Below, in pieces: positions 7,201 to 60,075 of a stretch of 64,000 nucleotides of DNA; position 1 is the stretch's first letter; each line of letters opens with the position of its first letter. The stretch comes from Branchiostoma floridae (Eukaryota > Chordata > Leptocardii > Amphioxiformes > Branchiostomatidae): NCBI RefSeq assembly GCF_000003815.2, contig NC_049979.1, positions 16,801,933-16,865,932 on the forward strand. Reading direction: 5' to 3'. The position numbers were made by a program, and so were the translations under genes. The notes beneath the pieces are model-generated. The model searched no databases, was not told where the DNA came from, and saw nothing but the letters and a program-made list of their open reading frames with translations.

Positions 7201-10200
7201 GTAGACGTTGTGCTTGACCGCCCATTTTGCCAGCTTGTCCCACTCGTCACGGGACCTGCCGTAGATGGAGAGACGCAGCTCAGCAAACTGGTACTTACTC
7301 TCCTCCAGGTCCTCCATCACTTCCTGGTGGGAATAATCAAAACTTTATCCATCTTTTATGGTTCAAAAGATTGGGAAGTGAAAAACTGCATCCTTGTTAG
7401 GTCAGGTCTAGGTCAGGCTAGGTCAAACCATCTTACTTCTCCAACCTTCTAACAGCAGACCGGTTATGCTATCATCATTATGGTGATAAAGGAACCTCAA
7501 GCCTCTTTGAACATATCCATTAACACAAATGATTTTTTGACTGTGCATTTTCTTAGTCTATCAGATAAGTTGTTCTTTTTTCACTCTATAGTACAAATGT
7601 AGCATCAACAAAAAAACAGTACCTTCATCAGCTCAGCGAAGTACTTTCCCTGTAAGTAGTTGTCAGTTTTGAGGAAGATCTCCCTCAGCATACTCTGCCC
7701 CATGGGGTTGTACTTGTGGTTGAACTTGTCAAACCGGTGGAATGTGTTACGGTCCTGTCAGGGGTCAATGTGGACAGACATTACCATTTGCTAGAACATC
7801 AATTATGTTGTGTTTCTTTAGTAGTTTAGTCAATGTATCTTAATAAACAGGCACAAAATTCTGATCTCAAAGAGATGATAACATAACAGGTACATTTTGT
7901 AATTCATCTCTCTGTATCTGTAACAATTATTTTCACCTACATGAATCAACTGTTAAACAGCTTTCATGAAACACCTGAGTCAAGGTGATGGAGAAATGAG
8001 CTCCTACTTACAGCATGGACATCCAGTGAGTCCACATTCAGCTCATAGGCTGTCAGGTTCAGGTCCTCGAACACCTGTAACAAAAGATGGGAATAAGGCC
8101 ATGCTGTAGTTGAACACATATTCAACAGTACAACATCCATCTCTTGTAAACTAGGATGGTACCTTTTTTGTTATGCATAAAAATTTCTTAAAGAAGTATG
8201 GTTAGGATAAAAGTAATTGTAAAACAGTTAAAATAGCTCCATAGCCTCTTTGAGGCCATATAGGGGCAGTGGTTGGTATCCACTGTGTCTCGGGCATAGT
8301 ATAGCAAAGTGAAGCCCACCCCTCTCCTTCCACTGCCTTTTACCTTTTAACCGAAGTCTATCCATTATTACACCTGGGTGGAGTGAGGATAGTCAGGTTT
8401 GGTGTCTTTCCCAAAGACATAATGTCTCGTCAAGAAAGCCAGAAATTAAACCTTTGGCCTCTGGATCTTATGTCTTCTAGTGTGGTCACCTGCATGATTA
8501 CATATACAAATTAATGGGATTACCTTAAGCTAGGGGCACAACCTGCCGTACATGCTTTTTGTCCGTACGTTTTTTTGGAGGTCATGTCCGCCACGTTTTT
8601 CCGAAAACGTGGGGAAGGACTGGCAAGAGCAGGGAGGGAGTACGTCTCAACGCACGTCTCTCGCACTGTTGCGCAAGCTAAGTTGTAAGTACGTGGTCTG
8701 CACGCCACGCAACTGGTTGTGAGCCGGTTACGTGCATCGTTCGCTGCGCAAGTGGTGAGTTGTACATGCTTATAACGTACAATCTCTGTGCGATTGCCCA
8801 TGTTTTGGAACGTAGACACTACGCAGTTGCAAGTACGGCGGGTTGTGCCTTTAGCTTTACATACATGTATAGGTACACTCTCACTGGACTTGGGGCACGC
8901 TTGTGGCATTGCCGGGTTTGAAAGATACTCAACGAATTTCAGAGATGAACAAATTCTTTTACTTTTCGTGTATTTTATCGTATTCTAAATTATAAAAAAA
9001 AAAAAATGACAAACAGTGACGCAGTGAACGAACCCCGCAATGCCGCAAGCGTGCCCCAAGTCCGGTGAGAGTGCACCTTAAGGTCTACAGAACAGTGCAA
9101 ACACAAAACCATCCCCACCTCCTTCAGGGTCTGTTCCTTGCCTCCATTCTTGATGACTACCTCGTCAGCATGCTTCCTGAGCTTGCTCTTGATGAAACGC
9201 AGCAGGTGTTTCTGGTTCATGCTGGAAGCTGCATGGATGTGAGTATCCACCTGGGGAACAGTCAGGTAACAATGCCGTTAGACATCAGAAAGTGAACGCG
9301 ATCTCAAATCAGTTTAGCTCAATGAAAGCAGTAGAGCTACTCTTTCGATTATCATGACAGAGAAGGCAGATTCCACAATAGTATCAAGTTTATACAGGTT
9401 CCTTGCACCAGGGAAATTCCCCTAGCTCTTTGCATCCTGTACAATGAACAGCAGACCAGCATACAAATGGGGTAAATAATAACAGGCAGGATTCAAACTC
9501 ACATATTGGTCCAGCAGCAGGGTCACCAACCAATGGGCTACACACACTACTACATACTATTTACCCATCTTTAACACTACATTGTATATGCTTGATTTTT
9601 GTATGAAAGGCTACAAGGATCCATGTATGTGTATGTCAGACAGAAATGGGTCCCTTCTCCTAAACATGTGCTACTTTCATTCCCCTTGTTGTCAAACATA
9701 ATCTTCTCCATCAACATGAACACTTTCCCAGTGTTCAGACCCTAGCCTGACCTTCCTGATGTTGTAGAAGTCCCTGTGTGGCACCTCCTTCTGGGCCACC
9801 AGCTCATTCATCTCATTTAGCAGCACGTGCAGCTGGAACTTGGACGACAGGTAACTCAGCCGACGGTAACAGAACGACTTTCTGGAAAGGAATGTCAGGT
9901 ATGATCGGTAAATGTTACCTACATGCATTAGTACTATAAGGTTTACTTCCAGCTAATGGTAGCAAGTGAAATGAGTGTGTATTATTGGAAGTAGATAAAC
10001 TATCGAATATTTAAAAGACATACATGTACAATGTAGTTTCAAACCCACAGAACAACTTACATGGGCCCGTCAGCTATCAGGGCATACAGCATGTTCATAT
10101 CAGCAATGAAGGAAGCCAGGTCAGGATAGGGCAGCTCAATGGGCTCGTCAGCTCTCATGGCATCAGGGCTATCGTACACATGGACCACACCGTCTACCAT

Positions 10201-13200
10201 CTTTACATGATAACCCAGGGACTCAGGCAGGGTGGGGTTGGCCCAAGGGTCCTGTCTACACACTGGTGAACTGGCCTCCAAAGTATCCTCTCGCTCTGTA
10301 CGTAAAAACAGAACATTGTAAGGTCATCAGCTACACATGGTAATGGTTATTTAGAAGCAGGTCAATGTGATTTTCTGAAATAAAGACAAATCTTTTACAC
10401 AGTGGTGACGTGTGCTGCCTTGAAGACTGTTTTTGTAACGCTGTTTAATTCCAATATGAAGAGAGATGCACCTGTGTCCTGTTCAGGCTTGCACCCTCCT
10501 TCCATAACCGGTGTCTCCCCAGTTTCCGACATGCGGAGGTAGCGCTCCGTGGTGAAGGGGAAGGACTGCATGCCCGCGTCCATGTACTTCTTACGGATGT
10601 ACAGGGCAGCGGTCAGGGACGTGGCAGCCTGCTGGACATCACTCAGGGGAACCTACAAAATTAACAGTACAAATTATGATGAACACATTTAATTCAAAGT
10701 AAATGTCCAATCTTAAAGGTTTTGTCTCAGACAAAATCCACATTTGAACATGATGCCCCTTCTAAAACCTAAAATTTCAAACTCCTAATACCCTTGTCAC
10801 ATTATCCATGATCTTAATGGGCGTAACGATGGTAGATAGGCCATATGTAAGACCGACAGAGGGTTGCGCATATTTTTCACCTGAAAACCGGCCCTGTCAC
10901 ATATAAGCCATACTTTGTACCTTGTACAATTGTTGTGCAATAAAGTTATTATTATAAGCGAGGCTCGGGCGATTGCCGCAGAATCGTCGTCTGATCGATT
11001 TTTACCAAATGTGACGGGTATTAGAGAACCATTGAGTAGACTTGCCCCAGTGGTTTCATCCCCAGTGATGGACACTCTCTGGAACTGTCCCAACACTTCC
11101 TCTTCTTCCTTCGTGAACTCTGCGGGTGTCAAGGTGGCCCCAAAGAACGTCGGCGATTTCAGATTCTGCTGGTGCCTGGTGGGAGTAACAGTAATACAAA
11201 TAAGAAAGATACAAATTCACCCTACACTCTATATACAAGAACACACTATTCATGCATAGAGAGTCAAAACGATAGGTGTGCCTATTTGCTTTAATTACTA
11301 CCTGATAATGTACAATGTATACTGTACATCCAGACCTAATGTCAATCTACCTGAATAACAGAGCATCCTCATGTACAACCTGATCTGATTGAAGTGCAAA
11401 ATTTGACATAGTACATTTAGATTCCCAAATACATTTCATAATTTACAACATTTTCCAGTTCCCTATATACACCATTACTGAATGCACTGGATGGGATGGA
11501 AAAGAACTTTGTGTTTCAAAATGAAAGAATTACTGCCAGGGCCATTTGTACTAATGCACACAGATAATACTGGGAGAAAATGGGGTATCAATGATTTCTG
11601 AGCACAGCTGATTTTCACACTGATCAGAGTCACCGAGTAATCCATTGGTTACAGTTAAGTGTTCCAGGGGCTTACCTGGTCACTGTTGAAACCCAGGTAT
11701 AGCTCGTAAAGTGCTCAACTAACGCCACATGCCCTTTGAGTGAAGGCCACAAAGGGCACTTATTTATGTGCATTTTTGATAATGTACAAACTGTATGTGT
11801 TAGCAGATTTTTGCATGCACGTTTGCATGTGGTTATGAACACTGAGCTAGCAAATAGACACCAGCCTGGTAGGAGATACCTGGCCTTCAATGATCTGTCT
11901 CTACAACAGGTGTCAGAACCGATATCTCACATTTGGCTAAATCAAATAGAAATCTATGAAACTCTGTTACCATGTATAATACCCATGTGTTTTCATGTAG
12001 GGACTGGTTGTTAATATATGACACAGATTACAATGCAAAATGTAATTTGAAAATTTCAAAACTTAAAAATTTAACAATTTAATGACTAATGTTTGAAAAG
12101 TTTCTGCCAAAAAAAAGATTTTTAAGATGTCAATTAACTACATTTGTAACTACACTGCCAGCAATTTCTGAAATACCAGACCAGATGGTACTGTTCCTAA
12201 GACAGGCGAGCAGATACAGCCTTTCCCACAAGTACTGTGCTTCCTTTTGCTCCATATCAAACACCATGGAAACAGGACGTGCAATTACAGGAAATTGGCC
12301 CTGTCATGCAGGACATGCCTGTACTTTGGAATAATTTCTTCAGATTATAAGCTGTGCACATGAGTGCATTTGGAATAACGAAGACTTAATCCTTGTTACT
12401 GTTGGTTAGGATGGTCTGGATGTCAGTATTTGGTGCGTAGTTATTTTGATGGAAAAATTAAGATGCACCTTAGGCTAGATACTACACATCACATTATCAC
12501 GCTGATTACATTATCTGAAATTTGACAAATAGGTAAAGTTTTTTGAGGTTATCTTCAAAATAGTGACAAGATTGAAGAGGGAGGCTTTGATGTGATTATC
12601 ACTTATATGAGATTATATCTAAAAATTCAGATAGAAAACAAAACATTCTTCCTAGAAATCTAGACAGGCCCCTAATCCTTTCATTACCATTTGTGTATTC
12701 ATGCAGTATCAACTTTGTATGGGACTGTTAGTAAGACCTGGACAAGTGTCTACTGTAACATATCATTAAGCTCCTAGCAATGGATATGTACTATGTACAT
12801 CTGCAACCTTTATATTACATGTAGAAGTGTACATGTGGGGCTGAAAATCAAAGTGTATTTACTTACAACTGAAAAAAACAACTGTCAGCTGCATTAGAAA
12901 GAAATCATCTGTATCTAATCCATATATAATTCTATAATTACCTGTAAAGTATTCTAATTATCTGTCCTCTATGATAAGAAACCTGACACTCACTCTTGCA
13001 TATCTTTGAGTTTCAGTTTGCGGGTAGTTCTAGCTTCCCTGTCATTATTGTCGTACCTTGAGATGTTGAGGAGGGGAGTGAAAGGAGGAGGAAAACACAC
13101 CGCAAAGTTAGTGCGAACAACTACAGAAACAAGCACCACGTCAAACCAGTCTTCACTGTCACCTGGCTTCATGTATGAGCATGCCATCCGATGTTGACCT

Positions 13201-22200: not shown

Positions 22201-24962
22201 NNNNNNNNNNNNNNNNNNNNNNNNNNNNNNNNNNNNNNNNNNNNNNNNNNNNNNNNNNNNNNNNNACAGGAGCCCCTATGCATAACTAATTGTTTTTTTA
22301 GAATCGCGGCAGCTCCTATTTTTCCGAAAGTAAAAAAAAAAAAAAACACAGCATCTTCCATTCAGAAGATTTTCATCATGAAATTACATGAAGCCATTCA
22401 ACAATTTCCAGTACGATAACTGGGTCCAAGTACCGTTATCAGCTCCTAGTGATGTGGATACATTTATCATTGCAGTGAACTTTTCTTTTATTCAAGTATG
22501 GCATGCGCTTTAATAATTATCATGCAGGTGCAGGTACTGTGTACTCTCCAAGCTGAGGTTAGGCTCCGGCTGTTTTTTAACGTTTTTTTAGTCTTTTCAT
22601 CGGGCTTTCTATTTTCTTTTATATCTTACTGTGTCAAAACCTACTGGCTGGCGTACTTCAAGAAAAATGACAAAATAGAAAGCCCGATAAAAACGACTAA
22701 AAAAACGTTTTAAAAAACAGCCAGAGCCTAACCTCTGCTTGGAGAGTAGGTACTGTATTTCTTTTCTGAAAAATTCCAGGACCAACAACTTAACTTGATG
22801 TGGCTTTATCTATATATTTCATTTCCTTCTTTGTTAAGTATATCCTCCTGCATACCTTTACTTTGTATGCAACAGCCAACGGGCGTAATCTTGTTGTGTT
22901 AGTGTTATAATTTCCTGCTTGTAGCGTGCGAGACCCGGAGGATAGGAGTTTCTACCTTGTTCGAGGGTTTCTTTTCGGGGGTCAGTGGTGATACACTGGT
23001 ACTGGGAGTGTTTTATTGGGCTAAAACTCTGGCAGTTTAAAGTTACTTACAATTTGAATGTACAAAGTTTACGTAATGAAAAAAGCACTAGAAGTACCTA
23101 CATTTGCTCGGGAAAAAATACATCACTTTTCTTTCCAGTACAGTGAGAGAAATGTTGCCACTATAGACATATGGCCACTATAGAAAAAATGCTGATCTAT
23201 TGACAAAGAGCAATAAGTTACACATAATTTTAGTACCCATTGATCTTTATTCATACAAAAATTGCACATGTAAGCCAATTGTTTAGATTTACAGTTCAAA
23301 TAATTATTACGAGAAATATTGATGAGAAAATAATCAATTTCGCCACTGTCAAACCTACGTATCAAAACTAAACGCAAACTGGCCATTTTTCCCGCGTTTT
23401 CCGCCAAGTAACATTTTCTCAAATGTCTCAACTAACCCTACCAAAGTTAACTCTGCCGAAAATGATTGATATCGCCATGCGGAATGTTGATTAATTCAAC
23501 GACAAAGACTTGTATTCTAACGTTCAATGCATGCGTACCGTCCGCTACCTCTCAAATGACCCTGTCTGAACTCTAAATCCTCGCAAACTACAATTCTAAA
23601 CCGGGCAAAGGGTGACACACACATGTATGGCCACTGTAAGGCTGTAATATGCATGTGTTTCTGTCTGTATATACGGCATTGGAAGCCAGCTTATGGATAT
23701 TAATTAGCATTCGTCTTCCTTGGCGCTGATTGGCTGGCTCTTTAAATTCAATTAACTCTTGTTTAAGCCCAGACTGCGCAGGTGTGAGGGGTCACTGGAG
23801 TTCACGGCAGGAGGCCGACAAGAAAACCAATTTCTCCTCAGAAAAGTGCTGAAATTAAGCATTTTAAAGTAGTTTATGCCAAACATTTTACTTGGATCAT
23901 TTTACCAACTATCTAATGCCTATCTACGCCAAATTTCAGGTCATTCCATTGTAATACCAGGTACAGTGGGCCAAAATATACCGTTTTGGTCAGAAGATAA
24001 CCTTTAAACATCAATAAAATCATTTTAGAGGCAGATATGAAAAAAATGCAAACTGGCAAATTTTTCCGTGTTTTCCGCCAAGTAACATTTACTCGATTGT
24101 CTTAACACACCCTACCAAAGTCAACTATGCCGAAAATGATTGATATTACCATGCGGAATGTTGGTTAATTCAACGACAAAGACTTGTATTCTAACGTTCA
24201 ATGCATGCGTACCGTCCGCTACCTCTCAAATGACCCTGTCTGAACTCCAAATCCTCGCAAACTACAATTTTAAACCGGGCAAAGGGTGACACACACATGT
24301 ATGGCCACTGTAAGGCTGTAATATGCATGTGTTTCTGTCTGTATATACGGCATTGGAAGCCAGCTTATGGATATTAATTAGCATTCGTTTTCCTCGGCGC
24401 TGATTGGCTGGCTCTTTAAATTCAATTAGCTATCGCGAAAGCCCAGGCTGCGCAGGTGTGTGGGGTCACTGCAGTTCACGGCAGGAGGCCGAAAGAAAAC
24501 CAATTTCCCTTCAGAAAAGTGCTGAAATTAAGCATTTTAAAGTGTTTAATGCCAAAAATTTTACTTGGATCATTTTACCAACTATCTAATGCCTATCTAC
24601 ACCAAATTTTAGGCCATTCCATTGTAAGACCAGGGTACAGTGGGGCAAAATACACCGTTTTGGTCAAAACATGACATTTTAACCTCAATAAAATCATTTT
24701 AAAGGCAGATATGAAAAAAATGAGAAAAACACCTAAGGGTATTGACCCACTCTACCCTTGTGCCAAATTTCAGATCATTCGGTCCAGGAACGGCGGAGAT
24801 GAATCACTTTAAAGATTTGACAGGAGAAAGAAAGAAAGAAAGAAACATTACGAATATAATATATTTCACCATACTATGTATGGCTGAAATATAACAATAG
24901 AGTGTAAAGCAGAGAGTTGTATTGTCCAGCTTTGACTCACCTGGTGACAGGTGTTCCTCCAT
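4035..24962 (-). CDS. AMPD: AMP deaminase (AMPD2/3-like), complete gene, 17 coding exons
   Basis: Adenosine-monophosphate deaminase converts AMP to IMP and ammonia in the cytosolic purine nucleotide cycle, normally as a zinc-dependent tetramer. Joining exons at 24941-24962, 15391-15676, 12994-13056, 11046-11175, 10472-10652, 10061-10295, 9752-9881, 9119-9250, 8012-8074, 7623-7754, 7160-7323, 6548-6674, 6198-6361, 5910-6030, 5514-5687, 4906-5016 and 4035-4229 gives 2430 nt, 809 aa plus stop, with every phase compatible. Visible hallmarks are the zinc-binding HIH (residues 353-355) in [14 protein letters not shown] (620-627) and the family signature SLSTDDP (695-701). The length fits vertebrate AMPDs. 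The N-terminal KEIA..LF and PYE.P motifs resemble AMPD2. One intron is GC-AG. Start choice: a short first exon with a good Kozak context (GACATGG) whose phase fits exon 2. The catalytic exons are near certain; exon 1 and the exon 2 acceptor are inference. Confidence 0.93.
4906..5016 (-). CDS. AMPD: AMPD exon 16
   Basis: Encodes [35 protein letters not shown], conserved C-terminal AMPD sequence. Phase 0 at both ends. Confidence 0.96.
5514..5687 (-). CDS. AMPD: AMPD exon 15 (SLSTDDP signature)
   Basis: Encodes [19 protein letters not shown] and the adenosine/AMP deaminase signature SLSTDDP (residues 695-701), which carries the metal-binding aspartate, then LQFHFTK. Phase 0 at both ends. Confidence 0.97.
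5910..6030 (-). CDS. AMPD: AMPD exon 14 (HCGEAG catalytic segment)
   Basis: Contains [20 protein letters not shown]; His622 and Glu625 lie in the family's active-site HxGE-type motif. Also [12 protein letters not shown]. Confidence 0.97.
6198..6361 (-). CDS. AMPD: AMPD exon 13
   Basis: Encodes [18 protein letters not shown], then [15 protein letters not shown] and LNHLRR, hallmark AMPD blocks. Ends in phase 2. Confidence 0.96.
6548..6674 (-). CDS. AMPD: AMPD exon 12
   Basis: Encodes [20 protein letters not shown] and the following [17 protein letters not shown], typical AMPD core. GT-AG flanks. Confidence 0.94.
7160..7323 (-). CDS. AMPD: AMPD exon 11
   Basis: Encodes [20 protein letters not shown] and [11 protein letters not shown], near-identical to vertebrate AMPD. 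It ends in phase 2 at a GTAAGT donor and the split codon (Tyr) is completed by exon 12. Confidence 0.96.
7399..7425 (+). promoter_or_regulatory. Triple AGGTCA nuclear-receptor half-site cluster (DR5 + DR4)
   Basis: Three perfect AGGTCA half-sites lie at 7399-7404, 7410-7415 and 7420-7425 in the same orientation, spaced by 5 then 4 bases. DR5 is the classical retinoic-acid-receptor/RXR spacing and DR4 the thyroid-hormone/LXR-RXR spacing. It lies in the AMPD intron between exons 10 and 11. Function is inference. Confidence 0.5.
7623..7754 (-). CDS. AMPD: AMPD exon 10
   Basis: Encodes [19 protein letters not shown] followed by [11 protein letters not shown], conserved AMPD core sequence. Phase 0 at both ends. 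Confidence 0.95.
8012..8074 (-). CDS. AMPD: AMPD exon 9
   Basis: 63-nt exon encoding [20 protein letters not shown] plus Ala, a conserved AMPD segment. Phase 0 at both ends with standard GT-AG flanks. Confidence 0.93.
8250..8510. repeat. Possible diverged SINE-like repeat
   Basis: Contains TTTCCCAAAGACATAATGTC followed by a stretch resembling the conserved tail of tRNA-derived SINEs common in marine invertebrates. Diverged; recognised from pattern only. Confidence 0.3.
8527..8857. mobile_element. 331-bp MITE
   Basis: Inverted termini AAGCTAGGGGCACAACCTGC (8527) and the complement of GCGGGTTGTGCCTTTAGCTT (ending 8857) match over about 25 bp. The interior is rich in CGTAC words. Located in the AMPD intron between exons 8 and 9. 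Confidence 0.7.
8873..9078. repeat. 206-bp inverted repeat adjoining the MITE
   Basis: Arms at 8873-8920 and 9031-9078 are complementary over about 48 bp with few mismatches (core GGACTTGGGGCACGCTTG), separated by an AT-rich loop with a long A-tract. An 8-base word ACCTTAAG occurs at 8522-8529 and 9075-9082, so the two foldbacks together may be one nested insertion. Confidence 0.6.
9119..9250 (-). CDS. AMPD: AMPD exon 8 (zinc-binding HxH)
   Basis: Starts [19 protein letters not shown]. The HIH pair (predicted residues 353 and 355) is the metal-ligand motif of the adenosine/AMP deaminase family. Phase 0 at both ends. Confidence 0.96.
9400..9545 (-). mobile_element. tRNA-derived SINE
   Basis: On the minus strand an A-box-like TAGCCCATTGGTTGG (9525-9540) is followed by a B-box-like GAGTTTGAATCC (9489-9500), the order and spacing of a pol III promoter. 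The body then runs to about 9400. Same strand as AMPD, in its intron. Confidence 0.5.
9752..9881 (-). CDS. AMPD: AMPD exon 7
   Basis: Encodes [25 protein letters not shown] and [10 protein letters not shown], a highly conserved AMPD block that leads directly into the zinc-site exon. Confidence 0.95.
10061..10295 (-). CDS. AMPD: AMPD exon 6
   Basis: Contains [24 protein letters not shown] and the end of LIADGPI, all recognisable AMPD segments just before the catalytic barrel. Phase joins exons 5 and 7 exactly. Confidence 0.92.
10472..10652 (-). CDS. AMPD: AMPD exon 5
   Basis: Begins [13 protein letters not shown] and includes ALYIRKKYM, as in vertebrate AMPDs, then a variable acidic linker. 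Donor GTGCAT, phase 1. Confidence 0.9.
10786..11023. mobile_element. 238-bp MITE next to the GC donor of AMPD intron 4
   Basis: Termini TAATACCCTTGTCACATT (10786) and AAATGTGACGGGTATTA (ending 11023) are inverted copies with small differences. Its right end lies about 21 bp from the non-canonical donor of exon 4. Confidence 0.65.
10905..10957 (+). repeat. Retroelement-tail-like motif
   Basis: TACCTTGTACAATTGTTGTG then CAATAAAGTTATTATTAT resembles the 3' ends of CR1/L2-type LINEs in marine invertebrates. It sits inside the 10786-11023 foldback, so it may instead be MITE interior. Confidence 0.25.
11046..11175 (-). CDS. AMPD: AMPD exon 4, ends at a GC donor
   Basis: Encodes 43 residues ending [13 protein letters not shown], the start of the conserved AMPD core. 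Continuity with the next exon (VPLSDVQ) requires the donor GGG|GCAAGT, i.e. GC instead of GT; the nearest GT would leave the wrong phase. The acceptor region has tandem AGs at 11176 and 11169. Confidence 0.88.
11176..12993. other. AMPD intron 3, nothing recognised
   Basis: Non-coding interval between exons 3 and 4. I see no further repeat or exon that I can support. Confidence 0.5.
12994..13056 (-). CDS. AMPD: AMPD exon 3, symmetric 63-nt exon
   Basis: Encodes a basic, charged 21-residue stretch ([20 protein letters not shown] plus a split codon). The acceptor follows a pyrimidine-rich run and the donor is GTGAGT. Both ends are phase 2, so the exon can be included or skipped without changing frame. 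It lies in the variable linker before the catalytic core. Confidence 0.6.
13057..15390. other. AMPD intron 2
   Basis: Holds the possible alternative exon at 14849-14919. The remainder shows no supported coding frame; TGTACATG-rich AT sequence. Confidence 0.45.
14849..14919 (-). other. Possible alternative AMPD exon (71 nt)
   Basis: Bounded by a good acceptor (TTTTCCAG) and a GTGAGT donor. It starts needing one base, exactly what exon 1 supplies, and then encodes [20 protein letters not shown] with no stop, ending in phase 0. It cannot follow exon 2 (stop after three codons). It could join exon 4 in frame if the inner acceptor ending at 11168 is used. This is inference from phase; I do not recognise the peptide. 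Confidence 0.3.
15391..15676 (-). CDS. AMPD: AMPD exon 2 (N-terminal regulatory region)
   Basis: Encodes the N-terminal region with [19 protein letters not shown] and [11 protein letters not shown], which aligns by eye with the N-terminus of vertebrate AMPD2. The donor is GTGAGT, phase 2. A second acceptor at 15734 keeps the same reading frame open but needs an upstream exon ending in phase 0. Confidence 0.82.
20499..20600. repeat. 41-bp tandem repeat, about 2.5 copies
   Basis: Units starting TACATCAGAT at 20499, 20540 and 20581 repeat with a period of 41 bases. Each has a TACAAACAGAT core; the last unit is truncated. Confidence 0.75.
20638..20923. mobile_element. hAT-type MITE with intact 8-bp target duplication
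   Basis: 286-bp element with inverted termini TAGTGGTGCGTACCG and CGGTACGCACCACTA, flanked by identical 8-bp copies GTCATAGA at 20630-20637 and 20924-20931. An 8-bp duplication plus termini of this form is diagnostic of the hAT superfamily. The interior is built of GGTTCAGGTCCGG-like words in both orientations; no transposase. Confidence 0.85.
21643..22265. other. Assembly gap (623 N)
   Basis: Run of N. ORFs reported through it are artefacts. It lies within a repeat element, the usual reason for such gaps. Confidence 0.99.
22541..22748. mobile_element. Hairpin element with 8-bp flanking duplication
   Basis: Long near-perfect inverted repeat: left arm from TACTCTCCAAGC, right arm ending GCTTGGAGAGTA, arms about 80 bp, loop about 50 bp. 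Flanked by GGTACTGT at 22533-22540 and 22749-22756. Shares the TCTCCAAGC..AGA terminal word with elements at 50241 and 63451. Confidence 0.75.
23368..24715. repeat. 674-bp tandem duplication
   Basis: Two adjacent copies, about 23368-24041 and 24042-24715, with a period of 674 bases (CGTTCAATGC recurs at 23521 and 24195). The copies are highly similar with scattered substitutions. Each carries a CCAAT-type GATTGGCTGG and the CAATAAAATCATTTTA tail. Confidence 0.85.
24828..24846 (+). repeat. (GAAA)n microsatellite in element copy A
   Basis: Short GAAA tract at the same place as in the element copy ending at 58489. Confidence 0.8.
24941..24962 (-). CDS. AMPD: AMPD exon 1 (start codon exon)
   Basis: Encodes MEEHLSP plus one base of the next codon. 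The ATG is at 24960-24962 (minus) in a GACATGG context, and the exon ends at a strong GTGAGT donor (first intron base 24940). The 5' UTR runs upstream towards about 25.2 kb. The phase-1 end fits the acceptor at 15676 (strong pyrimidine tract) but not the alternative acceptor at 15734. No transcript evidence, so this exon is the least certain of the gene. Confidence 0.55.
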
Positions 24963-39474: not shown

Positions 39475-39827
39475 TCACTTCTCGTCGTCCTCATCATCGC
39501 TGGGCACGGGCTTGAGGTCGACCATGGCGTGGATCTCCTCCGGTGTGTACCCCAGCAGGTTCTGCAGGTCGCACACGAACCGGTACACGTACCGCTTCCC
39601 TGACGTCTTGTGGATGATGTTCTTGTCGTAGTAGTAGCGAAGACCACGGCTCAGCTTCTCGTAGTTCATCTTGGGCTTGTTCTTACGGATGCCCCACCGG
39701 CGGGCGACCTCGTCGGGGTCGATGAGCTTGAACTCCCAGCCGTTGCCCGTCCAGGTGATGAAGTGCTGGCAGGACTTGTCTGTCAACAACTCGAGCAGGA
39801 ACTGCCATAGCTGGATGGGGCCACTGC
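39475..39827 (-). CDS. Ets1/2: ETS exon 8 (DNA-binding domain, stop)
   Basis: Encodes the whole winged helix-turn-helix: [16 protein letters not shown], the [20 protein letters not shown] recognition helix with its two DNA-contacting arginines, and the C-terminal [13 protein letters not shown] at 39475-39477. Confidence 0.98.
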
Positions 39828-42800
39828 CTGTTGAAATAAAGACAAGAAAAATTAAGTAATCTTGTTTCACACGTGTCAATTAAGTACCTATATTGACATT
39901 GAAAAGTTACAGCAGCTGACCTTAATCCAACAGAGACCTTGCCTAACACAGAAGAAATCCCTGTCTTGAGTTTTATCCTCCCACTAAGTTGATACAGACC
40001 GTGTTTTCTGTTTAAAATTAAGGTTGTAACCCCTACCCAACCTCCCCCAACTACAACATAGGAACTGTGAGGGTGTCTTTATCCCAACACTCACCAGAAT
40101 ATCCGGCCAACACGGCGGCTTGGATGACAGGGTTGCCGGGTTCAGCTGTCTGCGGTCTGGACTCCTGGGTGTTGAATGAGAAGTCGTTGAAATCTCCGTT
40201 GCCGTGGCTACTGTTGAGGGAGGAGAAGGAGGGGACCCGCTGCAGCCCGCTGCTTGTTGAAGGGTTGAAGCTGCCATAGGGAGAACTACTGTTGTTGTAC
40301 TCGCCTTGGTACGTGTTGTTTATCCCTCCGAACTTTCCTAAAAAAACACAAATTGGACAATACAATGTTAGAAGAATGTCAAGTAAAATATGTGCATAAT
40401 TTCAACAGGACCCGACAACAATTGGAACTTCAAAAGATAAATTCTTGTCAATAAAGGTATTTGATGCCTACCTCTGATTGGCCTCTCATATGCCTGTCCT
40501 CCGGACTGCATGGGCTTGGTGTTTCGCTGGAATGTGGGGTAATATTCAGGGACAATGCTGTCGTAGGATTCCTCTGTCTGGTATGATGAGCAGGGAGAGG
40601 GGGTGCTAGATGCCCAGCTGTAGTAGTCGGAGTCTTCGGTCTTGATCTTGTGCGTTGGTAGCAGGTCTTCTGCGTTGATGTCGTTCAAGGTCTGTAGAGA
40701 TTCTGAGATCTGGTAGCTGGTGCCTTCCATGAGCTGTGAATCCAACATAGGGACGCCTCCACAGTAGGCCTGCCCGGGCAACGCTCCTCTGGCCAGGAAG
40801 TCATTGAAGTCAGGCATGCAGACGGATTCGTAGAAATTGGCTGGCACACTTTCCAAAGGAATGTTTGTGGTCTTGCTGACAAACTCCTGTTGTTTGTCTT
40901 CGTCCACTTCTGTAGAAAACACATGAGGAAGAAAGGACGGCTTAGTTACGATTCAGGGTCGACCTAACTATAAAATTTAATGAACAGAAATAACTGGAAA
41001 TTTCGGGTTATTGAAATGCATGACGATTATTTACCTTTCTGTAGCATGTCCAGGTGCTCCCACAGGATGTCTCCTACAAACGGAGGGGCCAGGCTGAGGA
41101 ACCTGTCTTTGTCCATGGAGCACAACTCTCTGCCTGTCACTGTGAAGTTGGAGGGTCTGATTCCGTGCAAGGAGAACTCCCTGGATGCCCAGGAGACCCA
41201 CTGTAGGACCTGGGTGTCAGACCACTGGCGAGGATCTATGAAAATAAATATAAAAACATTGCGATGGTAAGTATCACTTCAAATTTAACGATCTGGATGT
41301 GCGTAGAGGAACAAATTACAAGTAATACGTTTTATGGTTAACAATCTATTTCTAGCAAAAACTTTAAAACGTTTTATGTTCAAGTAAATATTGATCTGTT
41401 GTTAATTTGTTCTCGGGGGAGGTATAATTACGTGAAACCCAGACCCACTTTAAAAAATAGCCGTCGCCCTGAGGCACTAATGCCCAGCCCATGGTGACGT
41501 ATGTAGCAAATTACTCCCGGTGTTTTCCCAAGAACCAACGGTGTTTCCCCAAGTCCCCTTAAAAAAATGATGTTCACCTTTGAGGATGCCAAGTTTCTGT
41601 CGCTCCTCCTTGAAGCTGCTGTAGCTCTGCTTGAGACACTCAGTCATGAGAGCGTTGGTGCCAGGCGTGACTGGTGGAATGGCTGGGTGCAAATCTGTGA
41701 AGACAAAACATAACAAGCTCGCTTTATTTCTCGCGTCATCCACAGTGAGCTGTCAGTCAACACGAAGGGCGTTCCAGTTGCGGAACATCACGAAGTACAA
41801 ACTCACACAAAGGGGACACTGGCGGCCTTCAGGCGTAAGCTAGCGCTCTTGGATAAACACGTATAGCTTTGCACGGCCTGGTGACATGCTGTCGCAATCA
41901 CTTCAAGCCTGACCTCGGCCACATAAATAGGTAACGGATGACATACAAGGCATTCGGTAACTAAATTCCAATTTGATTACTTAAACAACAAATAACTAGT
42001 GTTTAAAATACGAGCAAAGAACTACATAATGGAAACATCTAACACAAGAAAACAGTTAAAAAGAAAACAGTTTAAAAAGTTACAGCTATTTTTGAATAGG
42101 GCAACGACCGAACACATGCACTATGAGTATGAGTGAAGAGTGATTCACATAAAGACCATGTAGCGTTAGCAGCGGAAGGTAACCTAATACACAAAGCATA
42201 CAAGAAAAAAAAAGAACGGTATAAGAAATGTCGCCAGCAAATTCCGGCGAAAAAAAAAATACCTGAAGACATGGAAAAACCAGAGCCGAAGTAAATAAAA
42301 TACTTCAAAAAGTGGCGGACGGCCAGTAGAAATGGGAGAGGAGGCGAATCGTGCTGCCGTCCCAAGCGAAAACAGAAGCCAGAATGATCAAGTCAGCACA
42401 GGCGCACAGGTTTAGTAATGAGTGGCCTAAGAAATTTGGGAAGTGTGCGTACCCCTGATAAGAACCATCCTTCCCGAACCGCGGTGTACTCAAATGTTAC
42501 GGTCGTCTGGCACGATCACCAGTTTTATGAATGAAGGCTGGCGCGGGTGACATCATACATAAGCATTGTTTGAGCGCTACCATATTTGGTCACGTCTAGT
42601 GAGAGACGGACGCCCACGCGTGACGTCACAAATCCCGCCTCCTAGAGGGCCCCGAGCCAGACCAGATGATGCCTGATTTGAATGAGAAAAGCTTTCTTGG
42701 GGAGTATCGAATTCGGCTTATTGAATGAACACATGTGGGATTCAACGCTAATGTCGTATTCTCAGTTTGAGTCGATGTTGTAGGAAGCAAACGGAATCAA

Positions 42801-45280
42801 TCATAGAAATTCTGGGCCCGTTTCTCCATTCACTTTACTGATATTGTTAGGCACCGACTTGCCGAAAGGTTACCCATAATCCCTGTAAATAGGAAACACC
42901 TTTACTAAGTGAAAAACAGAGAGGCACACTGATACCGTGCCTGTATCCAGGCGATAGTGGGGCTCAGGTTTCTAATTTTACCTTGTCAGCGACTCAAGAA
43001 GACTATTTTGGGGGCTGGTATTTGATTGGGTGTTTAGATGACCTTCTGTGCAATTGTGAGGAGACGGGTTTTGATCTGTCCTTCGCGCGCTCTCGTATCT
43101 CATTACTGCCAGGCAAGGCTAGCTTATCTCTTGGCAAAGCTGCAAGGTCAGCCATGCTCAGTGAGTCAGCTTGTTTGGATTACACAGAAATGAGATGTCT
43201 TGTTTTTCAGAAGCCCATGGGAGTCCCACCCACCACTGCCCCGGGCCTTCTGAGGGCGCGTATATTCTACACAAACGACGGGTACCACAAACCACAAGAT
43301 GGCCAAACTGGAACCGTTCCAGTGGACAATTTGGATCAGGTGTGTTTTGGATTAAAGATCGCGTTTATAATCATTTTGCCAATCCGACGTAATCTGAAAC
43401 GTTTCATGCATAATTCATCCATGACCAGGAATGCGACTGATTACATACGCGGATTTGTTGACAGAACTAATTAAAAATTGCAAAGATAAGTTAGCAAAAG
43501 ACAAACAACGCGAGAAACGTGAGAGCAAAGAAGAAACAAATTAGTAAAAGAAAAATAATTTGTGAAAAGCTCTGGAGATTTAAAAGAAAACCCTGTTCAC
43601 CAAAAAGCTTTGTTAGTAATAAATATCAAGTGAAAAGATGTCTGGACTCACCGATAGAAATGTCTTGGTCGTCTTGTAAGTACTCTGCGCCAGTTGGCAC
43701 CACACAGTCCAGGTCTGACGTGGGGGACGGCAGTGTGAAGGTCAGAGTCTTCCTCACTTTTGTGTCCACTTCAACCAGCTGAGGAGAAAACAAAAAACAT
43801 AACATTAAATCTACAGTGCAGACGGCGTAAATTTGAAAATTAAGCGTGCTTTAGATTAGAGTCTGCCAAACCAACACAACCTGATCATACGTACATTCCT
43901 GTTGTAAATGGTAACATTGGGACACTTCACAAACGCTTCCGCACCCGACATACTTAAACAATGGGAAAATATTACGATCGGAACTCTGGGAACAACAAGT
44001 TGACTGTCAACATGTGATGATGAAATAACGGACAGGGGACCCCCAGACTGTGTTTATAGTGTGTGCCTGTTGGATTATGTTAGTCACCTGTCTGATAACC
44101 GTGCCCACACACCGCACCTTGTCTGTAGTAAACAATACCGGGACGTGACACGAGATGAACATTTTCCGGACCCAAACCACAACGTCAGGTGAATGACCCC
44201 CGGACAGGTATGACCAGGTAAAGGCCCGGAAACGACAGACAATTGCCCCATGTGACTAATGTTTACACAAGTGGTTCATTTTGCCAGAGATGTGTGGGAG
44301 TGCATTGTTGTGATGAATAAACAAACATCCTCGGTGTAGACAGAAAACATGCCATGTCCAAAAATATTGACTTTTTTCGGTGATCCCTACAATTCAGCAT
44401 CGTTAATTACGTAAGTCTTGTGATGTTGACATAAGTGCTAACAAGAGTAAGGTGATTAGCGATTGCAAAAATGGGGCGGATTTGAAATAACAAGTCTAGA
44501 GTACTGTAATTTTGGACGGGTAAAATCAACAAAATTCAACCTTGTTTAGACGTGTAAGCGGCTAGCTAGCGAGTATGATCCGTGGATGGGGGTTTATGGG
44601 CTGGATAACTGGTGTGTTTGCCACAGTGCAACGTGAGTTGGCCGCTTGCCAGATCGGTTGGCAGTACACAAGCTAATCAAGTATGTGTGAGGTCAGGACC
44701 CCTGTGACGCAGCGCGCTGGAGCGGGCTCATGTTCGCTGTTACGTGTGTGGAATCTCGGCTATCATCCCCGAGAGACCATTCACATGTTGTAGCCACATT
44801 TTTTCAACGTTTTTTTTTAGGAAGTTCTTACTCCAATCAATGAGATTTGTACACATGGGTTATAGTCACAGTATATATTTTCTTACATATCGGGAAATTT
44901 CCGAAAATATTGCGGATAATTTGTACGGTGTATTTTTTCTTCTTCTACAGTTTGACTTCTGTAGGAGGTCCAACTGAAGTCATTTATTGAAAAATAGTCT
45001 AATAGGCAGTAACGCTTGTGTAACAGTACCTGGCTTCTTTATCAGATTTTTTTCAGTGCGTTTGTGCAAGGTGGGGCAAAAGCAAACATGGTTGTTTGCA
45101 AGGCGCGAGAGCGCCAAACGTGTCGCGTTGTGCTGGCTGGCACCTAAGGGGGAACCCCTGATCGAGATAGCAGGAAAGATCTAGAAACGTGATTTTATCA
45201 TGATGTAGGTTTGTTCTTACCTTAGTAGATTTCAGGCCAGGAGCCATGGGATCGACGAGGCATGTTGGTACCTTCATCAT
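39475..45280 (-). CDS. Ets1/2: ETS1/2-type transcription factor, complete
   Basis: Sequence-specific nuclear activator binding GGA(A/T) sites, downstream of Ras/MAP kinase in this family. Coding exons 45221-45280, 43652-43778, 41578-41694, 41035-41235, 40472-40909, 40095-40337 and 39475-39827 total 1539 nt, 512 aa plus stop, all phases joining. Residues 102-168 form a Pointed/SAM domain ([24 protein letters not shown]). A MAP-kinase-type site PPVTP (Thr72) lies just before it. The Ser/Pro/Tyr-rich middle is followed by the inhibitory-helix motif [16 protein letters not shown] and the ETS domain (about 400-485) with [17 protein letters not shown] and [17 protein letters not shown]. The C-terminal [11 protein letters not shown] matches ETS1/2. 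The start is the first ATG of the second exon, MMKVP; the upstream exon frame is open but has no ATG. Confidence 0.95.
40095..40337 (-). CDS. Ets1/2: ETS exon 7 (linker and inhibitory region)
   Basis: Ser/Asn-rich linker with [10 protein letters not shown], as in the ETS1 serine-rich region, ending [14 protein letters not shown], the counterpart of the autoinhibitory helix before the ETS domain. Phase 1 at both ends. Confidence 0.93.
40472..40909 (-). CDS. Ets1/2: ETS exon 6 (transactivation region)
   Basis: 146 codons, acidic and Tyr/Ser/Pro-rich, with a [12 protein letters not shown] sumoylation-like IKTE motif. Phases fit both neighbours. Poorly conserved region, so support is from open frame and splice sites. 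Confidence 0.9.
41035..41235 (-). CDS. Ets1/2: ETS exon 5 (Pointed domain)
   Basis: Encodes [20 protein letters not shown] and [19 protein letters not shown], the SAM/Pointed domain used for ERK docking in ETS1/2. Confidence 0.97.
41578..41694 (-). CDS. Ets1/2: ETS exon 4 (MAP-kinase site)
   Basis: Encodes [20 protein letters not shown], then [12 protein letters not shown]. The PVTP threonine is the counterpart of the phosphorylated Thr38 of ETS1 and Thr72 of ETS2. Accepts splicing from exon 3 or, by phase, from the alternative first exon. Confidence 0.94.
42263..42495 (-). other. Alternative ETS first exon (short isoform)
   Basis: Contains ATGTCTTCAG followed by a GTATTT donor; the ATG is at 42270-42272. 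Its phase-1 end joins exon 4 exactly, giving [15 protein letters not shown] and a 453-aa protein that keeps the MAP-kinase site, Pointed and ETS domains but loses the first 62 residues of the long form. Inferred from phase and promoter context. Confidence 0.45.
42523..42628 (-). promoter_or_regulatory. Internal ETS promoter: TATA-like, CArG and full CRE
   Basis: Minus-strand ATAAAA at 42523-42528, CArG box CCATATTTGG at 42580-42589 and palindromic CRE TGACGTCA at 42621-42628, in a GC-rich block. These are SRF and CREB-type sites. They lie just upstream of the alternative first exon. Confidence 0.45.
43652..43778 (-). CDS. Ets1/2: ETS exon 3
   Basis: N-terminal exon encoding [20 protein letters not shown] and an acidic tail. 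Clear GTGAGT donor and pyrimidine-rich acceptor. Divergent region, supported by phase. Confidence 0.85.
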
Positions 45281-45288
45281 GGATGTTT
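45221..45288 (-). CDS. Ets1/2: ETS exon 2 (start codon)
   Basis: After an oligo-T acceptor the exon has 8 untranslated bases, then [23 protein letters not shown] at 45278-45280. Donor GTAAGA. Confidence 0.82.
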
Positions 45289-45835: not shown

Positions 45836-46087
45836 CTTGTGTAAGATGATTCAGAAATCCTGGTTGCGCAGTCAGTCCCGCGTCTTGTCGCTTGCCGAGA
45901 GGTGAGAAACGTGGGCGATCGCGGTGGTAAGAAATTTTACTGCGGTCAAAATAAATATTGTTGACTAACGATACTGTTGGTCGAGCGGGGGCGTATCTAA
46001 AATATCCTCAAAGTTGAACTATCCTCCACGATATTCAGTCACCCTTTCCTAGCGTATCGAGTATTCCTCAGGATGTGAACGTTTCAG
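45836..46087 (-). other. ETS exon 1 (5' UTR)
   Basis: Ends in ACAAG|GTGAG donor at 45836. Its frame is open for about 80 codons into exon 2 without an ATG. The 5' limit is set about 30 bp from the TATA box at 46116 and is inferred. Confidence 0.55.
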
Positions 46088-46115
46088 ACTGCCCACCTAC
46101 GCCGCTGAATAGGCA

Positions 46116-46173
46116 TTTATACCAGAGGACCCCGACGTTGCAAAACAAGGTGGCATGTTCGGCGTCTGATTGG
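46116..46173 (-). promoter_or_regulatory. ETS main promoter (TATA + CCAAT)
   Basis: Minus-strand TATAAA at 46116-46121 and CCAAT at 46169-46173, the latter next to a TGACG half-CRE. Further upstream lie TGACG-type sites (46214-46236, 46350) and a CArG box CCATATAAGG at 46385-46394. Spacing to exon 1 is right for a TATA promoter. Confidence 0.6.
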
Positions 46174-46399
46174 CCAACGTCACGAGGGGTTGGGTATGTG
46201 GTGTAAACACCTTCTTATGACGTAGCTGTACGTCACGGAAAATCGATAGGAGTTGACAGCCCTGCTATTGTTCAGGCGGTAATCCGACACGCCATTTTGT
46301 GTACGTTCTCTGACCCATGCTGACCCAGCCAATAGCAAGCGAGCAACGCTGTGACGTGTACCAAATTAAAAACAAATGTCACTTCCATATAAGGTAACA

Positions 46400-49639: not shown

Positions 49640-50905
49640 CACCCCGACCAATCGAATGGGGATATCCCTCGCGAATGTGCACACTCCTCTAGAAAAGAGG
49701 ACACTCCTCGACGTTCAAGGGGACGTTCCTCTTGGAAAGGGGATATGCCTCCCTTTATTAGGGGACGCTCCTCCGGAAATGGTATGGTTATCGGGCATAG
49801 GGGACGTCCCTCCAACACCCACGCCGGCCCGTGGAATCGGCCGAAAACCCGACAAATCCCTTTCTAGTTCATCTAAATCACAACATCCAAAACTTTAACC
49901 CCGTCAGTGCTCTCGACAAAAGTCACACCTCGCAAGGTAGGGATAGCTTTTTATTTAAAATTGAGGCATGTTGGAAATAAAGCTGTCCGCGCGGCAGAAC
50001 ATCACTTCTCTTCAGTGTTTTAATGGCGGCGTATCGCACGCCCGGCAAGCACAACATCGACTCTTAGCCTAAATATCCGCGTGCTTGTCGAGTTTTAAGG
50101 CCTCCCTCCCTGACACACGTACATGGGAGAAGTTTCTAACACGATGTTAGTCGCCGTTATCTGTTATGGCCTGTAAAAAGGTCGCGGTGTACTGGAAACG
50201 CTCGATAACTACGGCTAACCGTGACAGAGACCCGGCGCCCTAATCTCCAAGCAGATCCTACGGTAGCATAAGATAGTATCTAAAGCTGGCAGAGGAGTGA
50301 AGCTGGCTTAGGAGTGTGTTTTGCTCGACAAGCACACGGATACGGCATCGGGCCATGTAGCCGCGTTGTACAAAAAAATCCCGAATAACTACGTCTTACA
50401 TCGTGTTAGAAACTTCTCCCACGTGCGTGTGTTAGGGAGGGAGGCCCTAAAACCCGACAAGCACGCGGATATTTAGGCTAAAACTCGATGTTGTGCTTGC
50501 CGGGCGTGTGATACGCCGCCATTAAAACACTGAAGGGAAGTGATGTTCTGCCGCGCGGACAGCTTTATTTCCAACATGCCTCAATTTTAAATCAAAAACT
50601 ATCCGTACCTTGCGAGGTGTGACTTTTGTCGAGAGCACTGGCGGGGTTAAAGTTTTGGATGTTGTGATTTAGGTGAACTAGAAAGGGATTTGTCGGGTTT
50701 TCGGCCGATTCCACGGGCCGGCGTGGGTGTTGGAGGGACGTCCCCTATGCCCGATAACCATACCATTTCCGGAGGAGCGTCCCCTAATAAAGGGAGGCAC
50801 ATCCCCTTTCCAAGAGGAACGTCCCCTTGAACGTCGAGGAGTGTCCTCTTTTCTAGAGGAGTGTGCACATTCGCGAGGGATGTCCCCATTCGATTGGTCG
50901 GGGTG
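49640..50905. mobile_element. Giant foldback transposon with 5-bp target duplication
   Basis: 1266 bp: arms of about 510 bp (49640-50149 and 50397-50905) are near-perfect inverted copies, ends CACCCCGACCAATCG / CGATTGGTCGGGGTG, flanked by TTACT at 49635-49639 and 50906-50910. Each arm carries the same open frame reading inward (LANVHTPLEKRTLLDVQGDV). The central 247 bp hold part of another repeat. No transposase. CAC ends and 5-bp duplications recall Transib/RAG-type elements. Confidence 0.88.
50241..50310 (+). repeat. Half of a hairpin element nested in the foldback loop
   Basis: TAATCTCCAAGCAGATCCTA and GCTGGCAGAGGAGT match one arm of the hairpin element at 63451-63631. Confidence 0.65.
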
Positions 50906-56816: not shown

Positions 56817-58489
56817 ACTAGAAAGGCCGACATTTGCTTGAGAGCAAATACAGCATATTTCAGCCATCTCCCTCCCCATGCAACAATAGGCTATTTCAAA
56901 ATCACCCATTTGAAAAATCACTTTTACTAATGACGGTTTAACCCAAAAATGAGTCTTACAAAATTCCCCCGTTCAAGAATGGACTCCAGTGCACCCTATG
57001 TGAATTTGCACAATAGACCAGTCCAGAAATACTCCCACTGGAACCTTGGCCTTTTGAATAAGAAACCAAATCCAAAATTGAATTTAGCAAAAAAGGTCCC
57101 AGTGCAAAAAAAGGTATAATAGATCAGTCTAAAAACACTTCCACTAAAATTGAATTTTGATTCATCACCCGTTCAAAACTGAATTTGAAAAATCCCCCTT
57201 CCGTGTGCAAAAAATGGACTCTTCCATGTAAAGTAGAGCAGTCCAAAAATACATCCGCTAAAATAGGACTTTGACATAATCACAGAAGTCCAAAAAATGG
57301 ATTTAAAAAAAAAGCCCCCTCTATGCAAGAATGGACTCTTCCAGAACACCCATGTAAAATTGCAAATTAGACCAGTCCAAAAATAACCCTACTGAAAGAC
57401 TTTGACAAACTAGAAGTCACCAAAGTCCAAAATATCAATTTTGAAAAATCCCCCCTCCGTGCGAGAATAGACTCTTCCAGCACACGTTCTGTAAAATTGC
57501 AAAATAGACCTGTCCAAAAATGCATCCACTGAAAGACTTCACCAGTCCAATGATGAATTTAAAAAAAAATGAACCCCTCCGTGTAAGAATGGACTCTTCC
57601 AGATAACACCGAGCTCGCTGATTGGCTGCCACCCCCCTCTTTAGGATATAGATTCAGGCTAAGTGATTGGTTACCTATCTAATTAGATTAAATAGACATA
57701 TATGCCAGTAGGTCCAATCTGCAGCTGGGGGTCAACAACCTTAAGGTCATTGACCCCTCTGGCTATTGGAAAATGACAAAAAAATCCCCAAATATATCAT
57801 TTTGACGTAGTATATGACAAAAATTATACATGTGTCATTTGAATAAATATCTAGTGCACCCTTTTACCAAAATTTAGGTCATTTGGTTTTAAAACCAGAG
57901 CACAAGAGCCAAAAGTGTACTTTTTGGTCATAAAATGGCCAAATAATCGCAAAATTGAGCATTTTATTGTACCGTATGCCTCAAGTGTTATTGAATCCAT
58001 GTGCGCATATGTCTAGGGCACTCCTATACTAAATTTCAGGTCATCCGGTTCTAAAACCAAGGTACAGGAGCCAAAAGTGTCCTTTTTTGGTAAAAAAATG
58101 ACCAAAAAATGGCAAAAATAAGTATTTCGTTATACTGTACACCAAAACTGATATTGAATCTATATGGGGGACTTATCAAGGCACATCTTTACCAAATTTC
58201 AGCTCATTCGGTTATAATACCAGGGTACAGGGGGCCCAAATATACAGTTTTGGTCTTAAGATGACCAAAAAACCTTAATAAAATCATTTAAGAGACAGAT
58301 ATGGAAAAAATGAAAAAAACGTCCGAGGGTATTGGCCCACTCTACCCTTGTGCCAAATTTCAAGTCATTCGGTTGAGGAACAAGGGAGATACCGTGTTCT
58401 GAAGATTTGACAGGAGAAAGAAAGAAAGAAAGAAAGAAACATTACGAATACAATATATTTCACCATACCTATGGTATGGCTGAAATATA
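56817..58489. mobile_element. Unclassified non-autonomous element (copy B, 1.67 kb)
   Basis: Complete copy sharing both ends with 21577-24895. First half is degenerate tandem repeats of roughly 110-135 bp built around AATGGACTCTTCCAG and AGACCAGTCCAAAAAT. Second half has four units of about 162 bp starting at 57866, 58028, 58191 and 58352 (CCAAATTTCAGGTCATTCGG-like). Ends with a GAAA tract (58417-58438). No ORF. Confidence 0.75.
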
Positions 58490-60075
58490 ACAAACTTTAC
58501 AACAATAGCTATAATTCAATTTACCCGCCATTGTTTACGTACGCATGCGCTGTATGGATCCGAAACCCCCTTCCGAGAAGCCCGGGGGAAAGGGTGGACC
58601 GCAGAGGAGTCAGCTGTTTTTGTTGGGACTCGTCATGTCAAGTTGACTCAGTCCCTAGGAGGGGCCACTTGTCAGGTTTATAGGGCAGGGGGTCATGGCA
58701 TAAAAGGAGGTGTGTTTTCTTTCTCAGTAGAGGCTGTGCTAAAGGAGGTCAATGACATACAGTAGGAGTACATATCGAAGTTCGCCCCCCTCCCACTGGC
58801 GACTACTAGTATCTCTGTAACACTAACAGTAGTGAAAACGACTCGTTTCACCAGGACAATACATCCCCGGTGCCATTCCTAGTTACATGGGCTCTCATAA
58901 TCAGTCTCCCTTCGGAATGCGGGTATTGGAGCCCTGGTATTTATATCGTGGCACCTGGACAAAGTTTGATACTGAGTTTGTACAACTGAACAAGGCGCGC
59001 CACCCTGTTCCTCAGAATGTCTCTGACCAAGGACATACAAGTTGCCCCTGATTGGTGAGGGATAATGGCGTTTTCCTCAAAATCTGTAACAGAATGTCTC
59101 GCGTCTTTTGTCAGTCAAACCTTGGTTCAAGTTCCTAATGCATGTTGCAATTCCAGAATGCTCTAAATATATTGTCAACAATAAACATTTATGGTGGCAA
59201 CTTTCTAAACATCCGAAGAAAGTGAGTCACTTAGTTTGTTGTGTAGACAAACCTATCTGCTCCTTTATCTTGGAGTTGGAATGCATGAAATGAGCCTGAT
59301 ACACAAACAGACCTTTTTTCTGTACTACTCTTTCAGAAGCTCACATAGAGAGATTTCTTCAGTGTAGGTAGGCTCGCACAAATGCACTGAGAACTCCATG
59401 AAGATGATGTACTATAGAGCTTTGAGTAAGATTCCTTGTCACGTACATGTACATGTGCATGTGGTTCTGCTGTGTGCTTTGCATACACTCTATTTTGGGC
59501 ACCTTTACGTTCGGTGCAGAACAATGAATGTACAGGGAACATTAAGTCGAACAATCATATTAGACTAGAGGGAGTTGAAAATAAATCCAACAGGTGCAGT
59601 CTTCCTTTTCTGTTCTATCCATGCACAGACACATGCATCTATCCTACCAGGCGACATATAACGCATACAAAACAAGCCATTAGCATTTTTCATCTTCACC
59701 AGTGGCAGCGACACATATTCACATATTCAGAAAACGCGAACATGTATCATACATGGCCCTGAAACAAGGGATGACTTGAGGACAAACAAGCGTATGGTGA
59801 GGGTCTTGTTTTAGAGCATTAAAGGGCTGCCAACTCCTAATACTAAACCAGCTCCCAAAGTTACCCATTCTTACCACCTGTCAACTCCAGACGTGGACTG
59901 TCTATTCTTAGAGTACCGAGAAAACGTGCCCTGTTCACAGTCATTGCTGCACAAGGCAAGCGTTTTGTAGTGAAGTGACCGTGGTCCTCGAGAGTACGCC
60001 TCAGGGCAACCACCTGTTCCAGAACTTTTGTTTTCAGTTCAACTTTTTTCTATTATATTCATGAAAATGGATGAT

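Follow-up and report, generated by a model that had tools for sequence, protein, structure and literature searches.

Chicken c-ets-1 is said to yield proteins with two N-termini through alternative promoter use. In the vertebrate ETS1 products p68 and p54 (p51), both N-termini are placed onto the same exon, which carries the TP (MAP-kinase-type) site, and the longer of the two contains VPTG. Drosophila pointed, presumably also an ETS1/2 orthologue with alternative promoters, offers a second parallel, its P1 form being without the whole Pointed domain. Two kinds of regulatory sequence outside the ETS family are comparable as well: promoters of the immediate-early type (FOS, EGR1), which we take to combine CRE, CArG, EGR-type and ATF/Jun-type sites, and intragenic enhancers, which reportedly act as alternative promoters. 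The present work started from a prediction that an amphioxus ETS1/2 gene has a second promoter in one of its introns. The premise of that prediction, namely that vertebrate ETS1 is a two-promoter gene, agrees with PMC9249322, according to which p68 arises from an alternative promoter.

For amphioxus, CAGE, chromatin and methylation data from B. lanceolatum have been reported in PMC6292497, and ets1 does not appear in its main text. PMC10810493, as far as its accessible portion goes, concerns isoforms of Lhx3/4 and not of ETS1/2. Among the matches listed, no title or abstract opening dealt with a second promoter of amphioxus ETS1/2.

The ETS1/2 gene is carried by the minus strand of the window, that is, the whole 64,000-nucleotide stretch of Branchiostoma floridae DNA analysed here. 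Pfam matches identify the ETS DNA-binding domain (PF00178, E 7.9e-37) in 39475-39879 and a SAM/Pointed domain (PF02198, E 2.1e-24) in 41027-41278; the latter is preceded by a TP site, as in the ETS1/2 subfamily. Among solved structures, C-ets-1 (2kmd), ETS1 (2jv3) and C-ets-2 (4mhv) come closest to the N-terminal part of the short protein that would result from a second promoter, and the TP threonine, residue 13 of this form, lines up with the TP in both ETS1 chains (2kmd and 2jv3). The exons common to the long and short forms are the following.

41578 to 41694, minus strand: exon 4, with the TP (MAP-kinase-type) site and the first part of the PNT module
41035 to 41235, minus strand: exon 5, with the SAM/Pointed domain (PF02198)
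40472 to 40909, minus strand: exon 6 of the gene model
40095 to 40337, minus strand: exon 7 of the gene model
39475 to 39827, minus strand: exon 8, with the ETS domain (PF00178) and the stop codon

All junctions among these exons are in phase 1. The acceptor of exon 4 at 41694 is strong (10.4 bits), second among the seven modelled acceptors to that of exon 2 (10.7 bits). By the same kind of scoring, the donors of exons 4 to 7 reach 7.2, 7.5, 8.8 and 11.0 bits and those of modelled exons 2 and 3 reach 10.3 and 9.2 bits, while pairing with U1 gives -6.9 and -6.8 for the donors of exons 4 and 5. After the Pointed domain, exon 6 encodes HKIKTEDSD, which includes a SUMO-type IKTE sequence; a similar IKTE presumably sits in the short-form first exon of vertebrate ETS1, and the position of this site may differ between the amphioxus and vertebrate genes.

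Several other features of the window were recorded. Three ORFs within 8990-10323 on the minus strand (three of the four ORFs tested) match PF19326, which places an AMP deaminase gene downstream of ETS1/2 and in its orientation. From 1 to 21 kb the CpG observed/expected ratio is mostly low (0.05-0.72 per kb), as expected of a methylated gene body. A direct duplication of 690 bp with 92% identity occupies 23360-24722, and part of the adjoining sequence (24595-24897) recurs with 82% identity at 58185-58493. An inverted repeat (49640-50160 and 50385-50905), with arms of 521 bp that are 96% identical, lies farther upstream than the ETS1/2 promoter in CpG-rich sequence; it is perhaps a foldback or terminal-inverted-repeat element.

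Translation of the modelled long form (45280-45221, 43778-43652 and 41694 onward) gives a protein of 512 aa with 62 residues before exon 4. Its upstream parts are as follows.

46090 to 46240, minus strand: probable main promoter, with TATAAATG (46121), the initiator GGCAGT, CCAAT and three CRE half-sites
45836 to 46090, minus strand: predicted non-coding exon 1, 255 nt, no ATG, donor AAG/GTGAGA
45221 to 45288, minus strand: modelled exon 2, with the ATG (45280) that comes first in the modelled mRNA
43652 to 43778, minus strand: modelled exon 3, with VPTG, an acceptor of 9.8 bits, a donor of 9.2 bits and a matching frame

A distance of 31 nt on the minus strand separates TATAAATG (46121) from the initiator at 46090, the predicted start, and by TATA score this pair ranks third among the 966 initiator matches on the strand. 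Upstream of the TATA lie CCAAT (46173) and the three CRE half-sites (46235, 46223 and 46182). The donor of exon 1 pairs with U1 at -9.6, only 1.35% of 2144 overlapping stretches of 263 nt from the 22 kb upstream are free of ATG, and joining exon 1 to exon 2 leaves the ATG at 45280, with T at -3, as the first of the modelled mRNA. Several marks agree in predicting that 46090 is probably the long form's own promoter, and it serves as this gene's yardstick for a core promoter.

The VPTG of exon 3 is, we assume, the EVPTG motif of ETS2 and long ETS1. When a tail of long-form ETS1 was used as the query, its best match fell exactly on exon 3, with 26 of 200 shuffled queries doing as well. An ETS2 N-terminus, compared with the minus strand of 46000-41695, recovered neither exon 2 nor exon 3; its best match was intronic and was equalled by 193 of 200 shuffles. 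Because this second query missed exon 3, the link between exon 3 and the vertebrate VPTG exon rests on motif, frame and splice sites, which are also the main support for exon 3 itself. Exon 3 also encodes a peptide that resembles a MAP-kinase docking motif in its pattern and that the short form would lose.

Intron 3 contains the following regulatory-type sites.

42621 to 42628, strand-neutral: full palindromic CRE, TGACGTCA; found 5 times in the window, where simulations average 1.7
42611 to 42619, minus strand: exact EGR-type site, GCGTGGGCG; the only exact match in the window, simulation mean 0.015
42580 to 42589, strand-neutral: CArG box of SRF type, CCAAATATGG; found 6 times in the window, where simulations average 4.2
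42548 to 42555, plus strand: TGACATCA, an ATF/Jun-type variant CRE; 6 in the window against 4.0 expected, weak alone

The CRE and the CArG box had been placed upstream of the proposed exon by the original prediction and are present there, while the exact EGR site and TGACATCA are additions to its list. Together the four sites fall within about 80 bp, clustered in the manner of immediate-early type elements. Scored with a panel of 27 motifs, this cluster is the highest of the 64-kb window, and its full score was reached by none of 200 simulations and by none of 300 under each of two nulls. When TGACATCA is left out, the score is reached by 9 and 6 of 300 simulations under the two nulls; a weak SOX-type match supplies 3 of the 34 points (of 26 without TGACATCA). 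A CRE and a CArG box within 60 bp were seen in 0 of 200 simulations, which hold fewer CREs than the window. With both the EGR motif and TGACATCA removed (25 motifs), the best cluster of the window is instead at 18677, with a score reached by 242 and 222 of 300 simulations; the CRE and CArG box without those two sites are not exceptional. The statistics in favour of the cluster are flattering, because the panel was written after the sites in the cluster were known and because the window is richer than the nulls in CREs and in EGR-like sites (8 with one mismatch, against 2.8 expected).

The CpG observed/expected ratio is about 1 over 42051-42850, which places it in the top 3-5% of 800-base windows. 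We counted this in favour of a regulatory element, but as a non-specific sign, since much of 42-51 kb is CpG-rich; as a promoter mark it was rejected, the values near 45.6-46.4, 49.6-51 and 53.5-54 kb being equal or higher. A transposon origin of intron 3 was also rejected: comparison with the rest of the window at E 0.01 gave no match, and 41700-43640 contains one short tandem repeat.

That intron 3 contains a real regulatory element of some kind, whether an enhancer or a promoter with either of the first-exon arrangements discussed below, seems to us quite probable. As to its kind, we lean tentatively, at a little under even confidence, towards 42548-42628 being a signal-responsive cis-regulatory element that would serve mainly as an intronic enhancer of the promoter at 46090. 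This reading is favoured because the cluster is the top of the window and holds its only exact EGR site, and because the core promoter sequence nearby is poor while a TATA-initiator promoter is predicted at 46090. Factors of the CREB/ATF-Jun, EGR and SRF types would bind the element, which would thereby couple transcription of ETS1/2 to growth-factor, calcium or MAP-kinase signalling. It would act on the main promoter at 46090, itself endowed with CRE half-sites; its own initiation would be weak at most, and any transcript from it is presumptive. Like the intragenic enhancers mentioned above, an intronic cluster of this kind could yield transcripts that are joined by splicing to the exons downstream. 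Matching a site does not amount to being bound, and the sequence does not directly separate an enhancer from a TATA-less promoter.

In the original prediction, the same region was a true second promoter: transcription would start near 42.5 kb, and a splice from 42263 to 41694 would give a 453-aa ETS1/2 without VPTG and with the TP site and the Pointed and ETS domains. We regard this reading as doubtful. It calls upon these further features.

42523 to 42529, minus strand: CATAAAA, a weak TATA-like box (4.7 bits, a score reached by 325 sites of the window)
42427 to 42468, minus strand: 13-codon upstream ORF of the proposed 5' UTR, its ATG in strong context with A at -3 and G at +4
42263 to 42272, minus strand: ATGTCTTCAG, the coding portion proposed for the alternative first exon, with the donor GTATTT after it

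The predicted reading frame is borne out by translation. When an exon ending at 42263 is spliced to exon 4, the frame continues into a product of 453 aa, which would retain the MAP-kinase threonine and drop the 62 N-terminal residues of the long form, adding only MSS ahead of exon 4. In favour of such an exon, it has the site cluster upstream of it and the strong acceptor of exon 4 downstream, and the 223-nt leader from 42495 contains a single ATG besides the start, which 6.9% of such stretches match or beat. Its donor is weak but usable. By matrix the donor scores 5.0 bits, a value equalled or exceeded by 291 of the 4141 GT on the strand and below all six modelled donors of exons 2 to 7 (7.2 to 11.0). 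Its U1 pairing of -7.2, however, is on a par with the donors of exons 4 and 5 and is reached by 2.5% of GT, and the T run that follows might help a weak donor. Intron 3 has one stronger donor, at 43234 (U1 -9.5), but it is situated on the upstream side of the cluster and lacks an open in-phase ATG.

The agreement of phase, in contrast, is near chance and was rejected as evidence for an exon. In the approximately 19 kb upstream, an open in-phase ATG accompanies 26 of the 84 donors with an equal or better matrix score, and an in-phase ATG together with a donor whose U1 pairing is no weaker occurred in 140 of 300 simulated introns and in 53 of 500 simulated 400-nt segments. The start codon also counts against the second promoter: the ATG at 42272 has T at both -3 and +4, and the ATG at 42468, in strong context, lies upstream of it. 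Since the long-form start at 45280 likewise has T at -3, start context alone does not separate the two. The next in-frame ATG past 42272 is in exon 4, after the TP site, so that retention of the MAP-kinase threonine depends on the start codon at 42272.

The core promoter at 42.5 kb is poor beside the good one at 46090. CATAAAA is indeed present upstream of the proposed exon, but at chance level, since an equal or better match occurs in 53% of the strand's 320-bp windows. At the right spacing, about 30 nt downstream, it has no initiator, and of the 966 initiator matches the two that fall at 42.44-42.52 kb hold ranks 790 and 856. The TATA-like box was therefore rejected as evidence for a start site, and a TATA and initiator core was not found at 42.5 kb; a TATA-less start is possible on these scores. 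In this respect the candidate differs from immediate-early promoters, which it resembles in its sites. What survives of the predicted second promoter is an unusual site cluster and a usable donor, without an initiator-defined start, with a phase match near chance and with a poor start context. The 453-aa isoform, whose support hardly exceeds what chance would give, is a minority reading.

Comparison with vertebrate ETS1 bears on the second promoter in two opposing ways. The vertebrate short and long forms presumably become identical at the residue matching the first residue of exon 4 here, and we take them to join at about the place of the amphioxus 42263/41694 junction. Judged by these protein sequences, the candidate appears to lie in the intron that matches that of the second promoter of vertebrate ETS1, and the existence of the p68 promoter favours a second promoter here. 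As in p68 and p54 (p51), two N-termini would be placed onto the same TP-site exon, the longer one with VPTG. An in-phase junction with that exon, a feature of the vertebrate kind, is found in amphioxus, but near chance. Unlike its vertebrate counterpart, the amphioxus candidate adds only MSS and has no detected relative of the vertebrate alternative exon: a search of 46000-41695 in the three minus-strand frames found no relative of the p51/p54 first exon, 95 of 200 shuffles equalling the query. The predicted conservation of the alternative first exon to a basal chordate thus found no support. The intronic place appears to correspond to that in vertebrate ETS1, but with no sign of shared exon ancestry. 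Unlike pointed P1, the proposed amphioxus short form keeps the Pointed domain.

It is unlikely, in our estimate, that the sites lie together by coincidence in a stretch of intron that is inert. Such a coincidence would fit a cluster that ceases to be the window's best once EGR and TGACATCA are removed, the chance or near-chance levels of CATAAAA and the phase match, a motif list that is partly post hoc and a window generally rich in CRE and EGR-like sites. Against it stand the full cluster, unmatched in 300 simulations under both nulls and seldom matched without TGACATCA, and the exact EGR site, expected 0.015 times per window.

Very improbable is a promoter with another first exon, ending at donor 42453 (MVLIR, then exon 4) or at donor 41914, or a non-coding exon, in which case translation would begin at methionine 20 of the short form, the in-frame ATG of exon 4, and the TP site would be lost: intron 3 does hold further in-phase pairs of ATG and donor (42468-42453, 6.2 bits, in strong start context; 41953 or 41944 to 41914, 7.4 bits; 42583, 42556 or 42553 to 42520, 5.7 bits), but their donors pair with U1 less well (-5.3, -6.0 and -5.2) than 42263, and core promoter evidence is lacking.

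A decidedly unlikely but wider proposal is that the single ETS1/2 gene that preceded vertebrate genome duplication already had an internal, signal-induced promoter in this intron, the one that houses the second promoter of vertebrate ETS1, its position being old and its first exon replaced. The short form would then keep the ERK site and both domains and drop the VPTG region, and ERK activity would both raise and activate short ETS1/2.

The intron 3 cluster, which we prefer to read as an enhancer, is a testable lead and not an established result. Should the short form be real, ETS1 would have had its two promoters since before the duplications in vertebrates, and a single-copy gene would be available in which to test what the N-terminal VPTG region does. 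An element of SRF/CREB/EGR type that acts as an enhancer inside an ETS gene responsive to ERK would itself point to a feed-forward loop.
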